Shown: positions 41,895 through 47,793 of the stretch, one piece after another
Layout of the letters: every line of letters begins with the position of its first letter
How positions within the stretch are numbered: the stretch's first letter is position 1
Assembly (NCBI GenBank): GCA_002356435.2
Contig: AP018040.2
Location: 1,426,001-1,490,000 of the forward strand
Length of the DNA stretch: 64,000 bases
From: Petrimonas sp. IBARAKI
GTDB taxonomy: Bacteria > Bacteroidota > Bacteroidia > Bacteroidales > Dysgonomonadaceae
Reading direction: 5' to 3'
Program-made: the position numbers and the translations under genes
The notes under the pieces: generated by a model
What the model was told of the DNA's origin: nothing
The model's input: the letters and a program-made list of their open reading frames with translations, nothing else
Databases searched by the model: none

Positions 41895-42281
41895 TTAGCA
41901 GGTATAATGGACAAAGTTAAGGAAATATTTGGAAAAGACGTGTGAAGTTCCGTGAAGAATGGCGGTTTTCCGATAATTCTCTTTCCAGATTGCCTCACCT
42001 GAATATGAGAGCAGGTTATAGGTCAGGACAGCCATCGTTTCGGTTTGTTGTACAACGGGATTCATCATTTCAAATCTATCCATTTTCACCTTTCCCCGCA
42101 TGTTCTCGTACAACTCTTTTATTTTGTCACAACCGTCGATCCGTTTTTCGTGGGCAGGGTCGAAATAGGTAAAATCCTTCGAATACAGTTCGAGATAGGG
42201 AGAGGGATTACCATCATGCCATGCTTCGAGAGCGGCACTCTCCAAATCAATAATTGTCTCACTAATGGTACGTTTTTCCAT
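41895..42281 (-). pseudogene. SnoaL/NTF2-like protein with a damaged C-terminus
   Basis: From the ATG at 42281 the frame codes 128 residues. The first about 90 are colinear with the SnoaL/ketosteroid-isomerase-like family (TIIDLESAALEAWHDGNPSP, EMMNPVVQQTETMAVLTYNL). After YSGEAIWK the expected final strands are replaced by an unrelated tail, KTAILHGTSHVFSKYF. The change looks like a frameshift or deletion plus run-on into the intergenic region. It lies 14 bases from the HerA-like gene start. It may be non-functional. Confidence 0.65.
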
Positions 42282-42367
42282 GATGTTTTTATATTTAGTT
42301 GATAGTTGTTCAGGTTTTTCTCCGGGCAATGGAGGTTTCCAGATAATTATTTATCCGTATCTTCATG

Positions 42368-43658: not shown

Positions 43659-44585
43659 TCATTCAAACAGCTTAATCGTATAATCCAAAAGCTCGATTCC
43701 GCCGGATTTCCCGTGTCCGACTATAATTTTTTTTACTTCTGGATACTTCATCTTTACTTTTCTTACTGTATTCGGCCACTCTTCTACATTTGCTTCCGCA
43801 AGATTACCTTTCCCCGCTCCTGCTTCTTTTATTAAACAACCCCCAAACATAATATCTTCCAGGGGGAAATAAGCAATAATGTTATCGCAGGAATGACCTT
43901 CTCCCAGAAAATCAACATACACTTCTTCGTTGCCGACTTTCAATTCAAAATGTTCATCAAACCCGTGCTTCGGCATAGTAGAACCATTTTCTTTCAGTAC
44001 TTGTATCGTTCTGTTGTAGGCGTAAGAAATAATGTCCTGTCTGTGAAATTCCTCCAGGCCTCCCAAATTGTCGATATGATAATGCGTTGGAACAACCGCT
44101 ATAATTTTGCATTTCAACGATTGTGTTAACCAGTCAATCAGCTCGCGAGATGTTTCATTGTCTGTCGGTGTATCGAAAACAACAGCTTCATTGTTGTTCA
44201 CAATAATCATTCCGTTGCACGAAATTTTCTCGAAGTTCCCAAAATCAAGAAATGAAATATGCTGATATACATGCTCCGAAACCTGATTGATCATCAAAGA
44301 CGCTGACCTGTATGCCCTGTTCTCCGTTGTTCGATCTATGTTGACATTGCCATGAGCTATAGAGTGAGTTCCATCCGGATTTACAATTATGTTGCCATGA
44401 ACGGTAGAGTGCGTTCCGTTTGGATTTACAATTACATTGCCATGAACTGTAGAGTGAGTCCCGTCCGGATTTACAATTACGTTGCCATGAACAGTAGAAT
44501 GCGTTCCGTCCGGATTTACTACAACTGTCTGTCCTACCACATCTGTCACAAATACAATACAACAAATCATCAATAAAATTTTCAT
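43659..44585 (-). CDS. Subclass B1 metallo-beta-lactamase with N-terminal tandem repeats
   Basis: The protein has 308 residues from the ATG at 44585. A signal peptide (KILLMICCIVFVTDVVGQ) is followed by four 15-residue repeats (consensus VIVNPDGTHSTVHGN) and then a full MBL domain. All B1 zinc ligands are visible: THYHIDNLGG (H116, H118, D120), GEGHSCDN (H196), FGGCLIKEAG (C221) and VGHGKSGG (H263), by standard B1 numbering. Periplasmic carbapenem-type beta-lactam hydrolysis is expected by family, but activity is not shown. The repeat linker is unusual. A long in-frame extension to 44801 carries a truncated DHFR-family fragment; I treat it as accidental. Confidence 0.85.
   Translation of the reverse strand: MKILLMICCIVFVTDVVGQTVVVNPDGTHSTVHGNVIVNPDGTHSTVHGNVIVNPNGTHSTVHGNIIVNPDGTHSIAHGNVNIDRTTENRAYRSASLMINQVSEHVYQHISFLDFGNFEKISCNGMIIVNNNEAVVFDTPTDNETSRELIDWLTQSLKCKIIAVVPTHYHIDNLGGLEEFHRQDIISYAYNRTIQVLKENGSTMPKHGFDEHFELKVGNEEVYVDFLGEGHSCDNIIAYFPLEDIMFGGCLIKEAGAGKGNLAEANVEEWPNTVRKVKMKYPEVKKIIVGHGKSGGIELLDYTIKLFE
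44347..44526 (-). repeat. Four 45-base tandem repeats inside the B1 MBL gene
   Basis: Exact 45-base periodicity (units at 44347, 44392, 44437 and 44482) encodes the 15-residue NPDGTHS-VHGN units. The units differ mostly by single bases. The number is a multiple of three per unit, so copy-number change would keep the frame. It is not CRISPR: no spacers and fully coding. Confidence 0.95.
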
Positions 44586-44801
44586 ATTTCTTCCTCTAGG
44601 CCTTGACTTGCTAATTTTGCACTTTTCCAGCACGGTTCGCCAAAACTCCATAAGCTGGTAGGTTATCCTTCCGTATAACGCTGTGTCAGCACTTCTCAAG
44701 AGGTCAGCGTAATGCTGATGTATTTCATCGTCAGGGATACCTGAGGTATGGTCACAAAACCCGTCAAGCGTCATATTGATTGCTGCAATTACTTTTTTCA
44801 T
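44586..44801 (-). pseudogene. Truncated DHFR-family (RibD C-terminal-like) gene fragment
   Basis: The open frame gives about 58 residues of a RibD C-terminal/dihydrofolate-reductase-like protein: KKVIAAINMTLDGFCDHTSG, then RSADTALYGRITYQLMEFW. After EFWRTVLE the homology stops and the sequence runs into the MBL gene (KCKISKSRPRGRN). The remaining two thirds of the family are missing. It is most likely a relic left when the MBL gene was joined here. Confidence 0.7.
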
Positions 44802-45921: not shown

Positions 45922-47244
45922 TTATTCTCTCGTGAATGTAAATTGTCCACCGCCTTGTTTTAGGATCATTGTGTTGTCTGTCGGACTGAATTCCAACACA
46001 ACTCCCGCCCGGTCAAATTTAAATTTATCTTTTTCGGTTGCTTCAAGTGGAAACGCTGATTGTCCTGTTGCTTGTGCTATTAACGTATTTCCGTCTTTTG
46101 TAATTGTAATTTTCAAAGCGATTTGCTTGGAAGCATAAACTCCCAGATACCCGTCCAATTCTTCCGGAGTCAAGTTGTAAGTTGTGAATACCGGAATTTC
46201 GTATGGCTTGTCGTAAACCGCACTTAAAACCGCAATAGAAATGTCATTGTTATTGAAGTTTGTTCCGTTTGAAGTTAAAGCGTACGAAATCTTGTCGTCG
46301 GTAAAATGCGAGTAGACCGAACTGAACCCATCAATTCCGCCTGTGTGTCCGAAGCCAATACTTTCGTAGAAAGGAATTGGAAACAAACCAATTCCGTAAC
46401 CGTCTTTTATGGTTTTCATTATCTCAAGACTTTCAGATTTCAAAAGTCTTCCGCCAAATAAAGCGTCTGCAAATTTTGTCAAGTCGCTTGGTGTAGAAAT
46501 AATAGCGCCAGCACCCAGCGGAATGGTATAATCTGTTTCATTTTCCACTTTCCAGGTCCCTGCGAAACTGTATGATTTACATTCGTTGTTGTTAGGATTG
46601 ATTTTGCCAAAAACATACGTGTTTGTCAAATTTATTGGTCTAACAATGTATTCTTGCAATAAGTCTGCATACGATTTTGCAAAAGTCGCTTCAAGAATGT
46701 AAGATAAGAGAACAAAGTTTGAATTGCTGTATTCTGCTTTACTGTCTGGTTTGAAGTCGCTACCGCCTTTTGAAATGATTTCCACCATTTCTTTTTCTGT
46801 CTTTGGTTGCGTGTTCCAGGTCAAGTAATCTTTGTCGTTTGTGAAATTGTGTATTCCGCTTCTATGACCTAGCAAATGCTTTACGGTAATTTCATCTGCG
46901 TTTATGATTGTTGGAAACCATTTGTCAATAGTTTGGTTCAGGCATACCTTTTTTTCTTCAACCGCTTTTAAAACCAAAACGGCTGTGAACGATTTAGAAA
47001 TGGAGCCAATTCTGTATTTAGAATTTTCAGTTGCTTTGGTGTTGTTTTCAACGTCTGCGAGACCAACGGTTTTTGAATAAATTATTTCTCCGTTTTTTGA
47101 AACGGCGACGCTTCCCATAAACTTATTGTTTTGTTCAAGTGCGTTGAAATAGTTATCTAATTTAGTTTTGTCAAAACCGGTTTGAGCAATTCCTATTTGA
47201 CCTAATGTCAGAACTAGAGCTGTTGTTAAGATTGTTTTTGTCAT
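45922..47244 (-). CDS. Serine hydrolase, beta-lactamase-related (class C/DD-peptidase type)
   Basis: The 440-residue protein has a signal peptide (LTTALVLTLGQIGIAQ). Active-site motifs are SISKSFTAVLV (SxxK with catalytic Ser), YSNSNFVLL (YxN) and GHTGGIDGFS (H/KTG position). A C-terminal lipocalin-like/DUF3471-type domain follows (LDGYLGVYASKQIALKITIT). The family includes class C beta-lactamases, D-aminopeptidases and esterases, and true lactamase activity cannot be claimed. It lies in the cassette-like array between elements C and B. Confidence 0.87.
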   Translation of the reverse strand: MTKTILTTALVLTLGQIGIAQTGFDKTKLDNYFNALEQNNKFMGSVAVSKNGEIIYSKTVGLADVENNTKATENSKYRIGSISKSFTAVLVLKAVEEKKVCLNQTIDKWFPTIINADEITVKHLLGHRSGIHNFTNDKDYLTWNTQPKTEKEMVEIISKGGSDFKPDSKAEYSNSNFVLLSYILEATFAKSYADLLQEYIVRPINLTNTYVFGKINPNNNECKSYSFAGTWKVENETDYTIPLGAGAIISTPSDLTKFADALFGGRLLKSESLEIMKTIKDGYGIGLFPIPFYESIGFGHTGGIDGFSSVYSHFTDDKISYALTSNGTNFNNNDISIAVLSAVYDKPYEIPVFTTYNLTPEELDGYLGVYASKQIALKITITKDGNTLIAQATGQSAFPLEATEKDKFKFDRAGVVLEFSPTDNTMILKQGGGQFTFTRE

Positions 47245-47331: not shown

Positions 47332-47793
47332 TCAAGTTGCAAGCTCTGTCGTTAATCCTTCGTGCGCTAACTCTAACGTCTCTATTGTAACTTCATTTGC
47401 ATCCGATTTTAAATCCGGACTTGAAATTTTAGTAGGCCAAGCATTTGTCAACCTCCAAGTCATAATAGGTTTTCCACCTTCATCCAACAACTGGATTGTT
47501 ACTGTTTCTCTTTTAATGGTATTCATTTTAATGGCATCATACCAATTAAAGAAATTATTGTTTTTCACTAAAACGCCTTTCTTAAGAATAATGTTTCCTC
47601 CTTTAGTTAATCCAGGCATTTTAATCGTTGAGAATTGTTTGCCATCTCCATGTCTGTATTCCATGGGTTGTGTATCTGTTCCTAATCCGGAAATTTCTTG
47701 AAACGATATTGTCTTGTCTTGTGAACCGAATTTAACTGTAAAGTAAAACTTGGGTAATGGCCATACATTATTATCTTGAGTTTCTCCTGTCAT
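47332..47793 (-). CDS. Orphan phage/eCIS tail-tube protein (gp19-like)
   Basis: The 153-residue protein has the conserved phage tail-tube fold of the TIGR02241/T4 gp19-like family: FYFTVKFGSQDKTISFQEIS, GLGTDTQPMEYRHGD, the MPGLTKGGNIILKKGVL strand, and the end TIETLELAHEGLT. In extracellular contractile injection systems such a protein forms the inner tube. No sheath, baseplate, ATPase or spike gene is in the window. It starts 4 bases after the methyltransferase gene and is on the minus strand between elements D and C, as part of a two-gene cassette. Confidence 0.85.
   Translation of the reverse strand: MTGETQDNNVWPLPKFYFTVKFGSQDKTISFQEISGLGTDTQPMEYRHGDGKQFSTIKMPGLTKGGNIILKKGVLVKNNNFFNWYDAIKMNTIKRETVTIQLLDEGGKPIMTWRLTNAWPTKISSPDLKSDANEVTIETLELAHEGLTTELAT

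Follow-up and report, generated by a model that had tools for sequence, protein, structure and literature searches.

How a metallo-beta-lactamase came to carry a tandem repeat array ahead of its catalytic domain, and what the array does there, are the questions raised by bla, a gene in the 64,000-nucleotide stretch of Petrimonas sp. IBARAKI DNA analysed here (the window). The features of the locus are given in Table 1. In the enzyme domain, all six B1 zinc ligands are present, namely the HxHxD motif and the His196-, Cys221- and His263-type residues, and they line up with those of the solved B1 enzymes 6t5l and 9gx9. The product scored 249 bits against the NCBIfam model bla_subclass_B1 (NF033088), whose curated cut-off is 200, which bears out the assignment to B1 with six zinc ligands made in an earlier note on this DNA. 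With the enzyme domain only, the highest-scoring named NCBIfam models were CIM (281.9 bits) and CHM (275.2 bits), and bla fell far short of the cut-offs of these two families (490 and 475 bits, respectively). The NCBIfam family bla_B1_long (subclass B1, long type) resembles bla in being a B1 enzyme with extra sequence; however, the match to bla spans positions 12-218 of the 334 in that model, which places that family's additional sequence at the C-terminus, whereas that of bla is N-terminal. The product of bla is a B1 enzyme with intact ligands, which presumably carries out ordinary two-zinc hydrolysis.

Table 1. Features of bla and its surroundings, with positions in the window
Feature	Position	Strand	Basis
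bla, 308 aa; metallo-beta-lactamase of subclass B1 preceded by the repeat module (start codon ATG, 44585; stop codon, 43659-43661)	43659..44585	-	ORF, models, structures
Inferred Sec signal peptide, MKILLMICCIVFVTDVVG cut before Q, residues 1-18	44532..44585	-	Cleavage site read from sequence; near-identical leader in the G009/L082 small repeat protein
Four 45-bp (15-aa) repeats, residues 21-80	44346..44525	-	TRF and translation
Repeat units, in order	44525-44481, 44480-44436, 44435-44391, 44390-44346	-	
Short linker where the fusion meets the lactamase domain, residues 81-92	44310..44345	-	Comparison with repeat-free G920, G683, G029 and G011 homologues
B1 metallo-beta-lactamase domain, residues 93-308	43662..44309	-	Model and structure matches, ligands
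Zinc ligands His168, His170, Asp172	44082-44084, 44076-44078, 44070-44072	-	
Zinc ligands His231, Cys250, His291	43893-43895, 43836-43838, 43713-43715	-	
RibD_C-type reductase remnant, cut by two deletions, in frame with bla	44588..44801	-	Comparison with same-species G087
Deletion-junction region: 90 bp lost between direct repeats (CTGGAAAA) and ~2.4 kb lost in a second deletion	44588..44630	-	Comparison with G087
SnoaL-like gene, much of it absent from conspecific G087	41895-42353		
Serine hydrolase, beta-lactamase/DD-peptidase superfamily	45922-47244	-	
T4 gp19-type tail tube gene	47332-47793		PF06841, 151 bits

The four repeat units read, in order, VVVNPDGTHSTVHGN, VIVNPDGTHSTVHGN, VIVNPNGTHSTVHGN and IIVNPDGTHSIAHGN, each with two His. 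TRF reported the array as 3.8 copies of 45 bp with 85% matches (score 255, 44347-44519) and in a second register of 90 bp (score 289). Translation and TRF thus confirm the four His-rich 15-residue repeats that had been noted downstream of the signal peptide and ahead of the enzyme. A chance repeat is ruled out by these scores, and an assembly artefact by the presence of the same array in the independent closed genome G087, a second strain of the species. The repeats hold eight His in 61 residues, three acidic residues, and no Cys, Lys or Arg. By inspection, the leader MKILLMICCIVFVTDVVGQ contains no plausible lipobox in the cleavage region. The predicted cut, between VVG and QTVVV, falls just ahead of the first repeat; provided this site is right, the mature enzyme would keep the repeats, and their removal with the signal peptide, which the earlier note thought would weaken any link to lactamase function, appears not to occur. 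AlphaFold models of a repeat protein of the 15-residue class and of the full enzyme were of low confidence (mean pLDDT 58 and 41, respectively), and both of these poor models show a regular strand pattern in each repeat unit. None of the B1 models or solved structures found covers the repeats, the matches beginning at about residue 85 or later. This agrees with the claim that no B1 enzyme is known to have such a linker, but the repeats themselves are not specific to lactamases, as described below.

The nearest repeat-free enzymes are those of genomes G683 (73% identity), G920 (71%), G029 (68%) and G011 (65%). Lipobox-like leaders are found in G920 (ILLGCNDVKAEKEVYKSETLLINQ, LLGC), G029 (ILLGCKE, LLGC) and G011 (LIGCKK, LIGC). 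The G683 lactamase (locus L089) has LLGF where its relatives have LLGC, an apparent loss of the lipidation Cys. CIM-1, CIM-2 and CJO-1, characterised relatives in the closest named group, are reported to be membrane-associated lipoproteins (PMC10920655, PMC12326980). The lipidated CIM/CHM/CJO B1 enzymes of Chryseobacterium (PMC10920655, PMC12326980) have the same ligand set as bla; in contrast, they have a lipobox, whereas bla has a signal-peptidase-I-like leader followed by repeats. In the window strain, in conspecific G087 and in a third fusion at locus L015, the repeats stand in for the lipoprotein leader at the same junction. The sequence that follows the repeats in L015 (GATEKEVYKSETLLINQ / ATEKEVYKSETLLINQISEHVYQHIS) closely matches the sequence that follows the lipobox in G920 (VKAEKEVYKSETLLINQISEHVYQHIS), and thus the swap point is well defined.

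The likely source of the new 5' end is an unnamed, uncharacterised family of small secreted proteins of Bacteroidota with NPDGTHS repeats. A scan of one genome per species across 84,980 species found the repeat at 66 loci, all of them in Bacteroidota where the record title named an organism, and among those of the loci that were read out, only one encodes a lactamase. Over 60 other Bacteroidota genomes have the module, almost always in small secreted proteins; the earlier note had reckoned that occurrence in many unrelated proteins would loosen the connection with the lactamase, and a breadth of this kind does make any special tie to lactamase chemistry weak. In a single-sequence search, one of 395 other genomes across the phylum matched at E ≤ 1e-6, which makes the module scattered and not common. 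The repeat proteins are short (median 149 residues in the 49 examined), and their signal peptide runs straight into the repeats, with mostly 23-26 residues from the start to the first unit. The lactamase has the same layout: tandem NP(D/N)GTHS units, at a spacing of 15, come immediately after its signal peptide, and the distance in it is 23. Most repeat proteins have a spacing of 19, and a second class, which includes the lactamase, has 15. The NP(D/N)GTHS consensus of the units is strong, but both our own pattern and the search words are biased towards it.

The leader, the position of the first repeat, the 15-residue spacing and the unit consensus of bla are shared with small repeat proteins such as those at G009/L082, L014 and L016. 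The closest case comes from G009, in the window genome's own family, where the small protein has the leader MRNLLLLCFVAFVTTAFGQTVVVNPDGTHSVITGN as against MKILLMICCIVFVTDVVGQTVVVNPDGTHSTVHGN in the lactamase. At the DNA level, the 5' end of bla aligns with this small-protein gene from the start-codon region at 70% identity over 141 bp (E 6e-12). Comparison of protein and of DNA thus shows bla to be a chimeric gene whose 5' module is homologous to small repeat-protein genes. The two kinds of protein differ at the other end: most of the repeat proteins, many with the 19-residue spacing, end in a Lys/Arg-rich tail (at least 28% of the last 25 residues in 30 of 49; median 32%), whereas bla lacks this tail and the enzyme occupies its place. 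At loci L009-L073, most of the small proteins have such a tail and yet repeats almost free of Lys and Arg. Some repeat proteins have other C-terminal parts, for example DUF4468 in L016. No Pfam or NCBIfam family reached its cut-off over the repeats, and in the open-access literature we found no description of the repeat motif or of B1 N-terminal extensions. Among plasmid records, the repeats alone clearly matched one Dyadobacter plasmid, and none covered 80% of the enzyme plus repeats; in viral contigs, the repeats had one weak match and the lactamase had no relative.

Next to the sequences themselves, their distribution bears on the origin of the fusion. Among 101 genomes of the family, the fusion is found in the window genome and in G087, and it is also found at L015 (genomes G885/G922), in another family of the same order with different flanking genes (families f1 and f145). 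In a separate search of 393 genomes of the order, it was found in the window genome only, while about 40 genomes matched the enzyme part alone and four the repeats alone. The three repeat-bearing enzymes group together in the tree (in 88% of bootstrap trees, and with support of 91/86, which is below the 95 mark and concerns three sequences); this favours, without proving, their descent from one fusion. Since the fusion occurs in two families whose other sampled members do not have it, and since its flanks differ, movement between families by transfer is suggested. The L015 lactamase (L015:3941-4705) lacks 41 codons in frame, with YFP joined to KVKK, and is probably inactive because the Cys zinc ligand was lost with them.

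On balance, we favour the view that bla is a chimeric B1 lactamase whose leader was swapped for the 5' end of a small-secreted-protein gene in one fusion, with transfer between families and with the repeats acting as a spacer or tether. The ancestor would have been a probable lipoprotein akin to the CIM/CHM enzymes of Bacteroidota. Its leader would have given way to the 5' end of a gene for a small secreted NPDGTHS-repeat protein, the part that encodes the signal peptide and the 15-residue repeats. This single swap would then have spread between families while the repeat number changed. The product would be exported by Sec and cut by signal peptidase I at the predicted site, so that the mature enzyme would have repeats at its N-terminus instead of a lipid anchor, and the lactamase part would work as an ordinary two-zinc B1 enzyme. 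The swap would probably change where the enzyme is located rather than how it works. For the repeats, a spacer or envelope tether is our leading guess; they may form a short, beta-rich stalk of little charge that spaces the enzyme or retains it in the envelope by non-lipid means, and this is the weakest step, the stalk being a guess given the poor models.

The repeats may instead have been passive, with a new signal peptide or translation start being what was selected and the array coming along with no role of its own. We regard this as less likely than the favoured view as a whole, although as a role for the repeats it comes close in likelihood to a spacer or tether. The behaviour of the array fits it. 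Between the window strain and G087, 14 of 183 sites differ in the repeats (9 silent, 5 amino-acid-changing), as against 12 of 648 in the enzyme domain (7 silent, 5 replacing) and 0 of 57 in the leader, which makes the repeats about four times more variable than the enzyme. The number of units, which had been suspected to vary, does so: there are four in the window strain, four in G087 and three in L015. Units 1 and 2 of L015 differ from each other at 3 of 45 sites and from every window unit at no fewer than 6, which suggests turnover within the array; the differences as a whole point to turnover, weak constraint, or both. However, each of the three fusions still has three or more repeats in frame, their NPDGTHS core almost intact (some units read NSDGTHS or NPNGTHS), although recombination between units could easily have deleted them. 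It is much harder to credit the repeats with being a His-rich reservoir of zinc, there to supply the two-zinc active site or to shield it. Their eight His invite this idea, as do the CusB/CusA-type RND efflux genes near the G009 small repeat-protein gene (L082:3-3663), but such genes are not evident beside the other listed repeat genes, whose neighbourhoods show no evident metal theme. The first His is near-invariant in the units sampled (97%), also in repeat proteins with no recognised metal domain, whereas only about 18% of the 236 family units have the second (VHG), and the repeats have no Cys and few acidic residues. The suggestion of the earlier note that the repeats bind zinc near the active site thus found no support, the second His being mostly absent from the family and a consistent metal theme missing.

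The upstream region of bla was reshaped in the window strain by two deletions. Upstream of the gene, G087 has about 300 bp that belong to bla itself, a DUF4419 gene and a complete RibD_C-type reductase of 188 residues; of this stretch, just parts of the reductase are left in the window strain. The larger deletion reaches to within a few bases of the bla ATG, and the gene's own upstream region is gone. The open frame now reaches up to 44801 (380 aa), with bla fused to the reductase remnant. The working enzyme presumably still starts at 44585, since an upstream start would bury the signal peptide; the ATG there is closely preceded by an AGGAAG stretch. Because the deletion placed bla directly behind the remnant, its expression probably depends on transcription from upstream genes; a scan for the Bacteroidota-type promoter pattern gave nothing above chance and nothing at bla. 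A serine hydrolase gene upstream is read in the same direction as bla and may be transcribed together with it, and a tail tube gene lies beyond it. Elsewhere in the window, much of a SnoaL-like gene is missing from G087, and thus the stretch has lost DNA more than once. The loss of the upstream region and the fusion to a truncated reductase would also fit a decaying or silent relic, and the L015 homologue without its Cys-ligand region fits decay as well as function. We nevertheless think a relic unlikely, since both conspecific strains have an undamaged frame and all the ligands, their enzyme domains differ at few sites, and the AGGAAG stretch stands close to the ATG.

A bolder version of the favoured leader swap is that the NPDGTHS repeat is a lipid-free module for envelope association or display in Bacteroidota, not yet described, which a B1 lactamase captured in place of its lipoprotein anchor. 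We hold this only tentatively and find it rather doubtful; if true, it would be a new way of placing a carbapenemase in or on the envelope. Work on NDM-1 cited in PMC12326980 indicates that a lipid anchor, as opposed to a soluble form, affects how stable a B1 enzyme is during zinc starvation and how it is released in vesicles, and the same paper calls the origin of the NDM lipidation sequence unknown. Taken together, bla is unusual, but it is a known enzyme with a swapped leader and not a new kind of enzyme. As a natural swap with close relatives on either side, it makes anchor and repeats directly comparable, and it draws attention to the small secreted repeat proteins, a widespread family that none of the protein family models used (Pfam, NCBIfam) describes.
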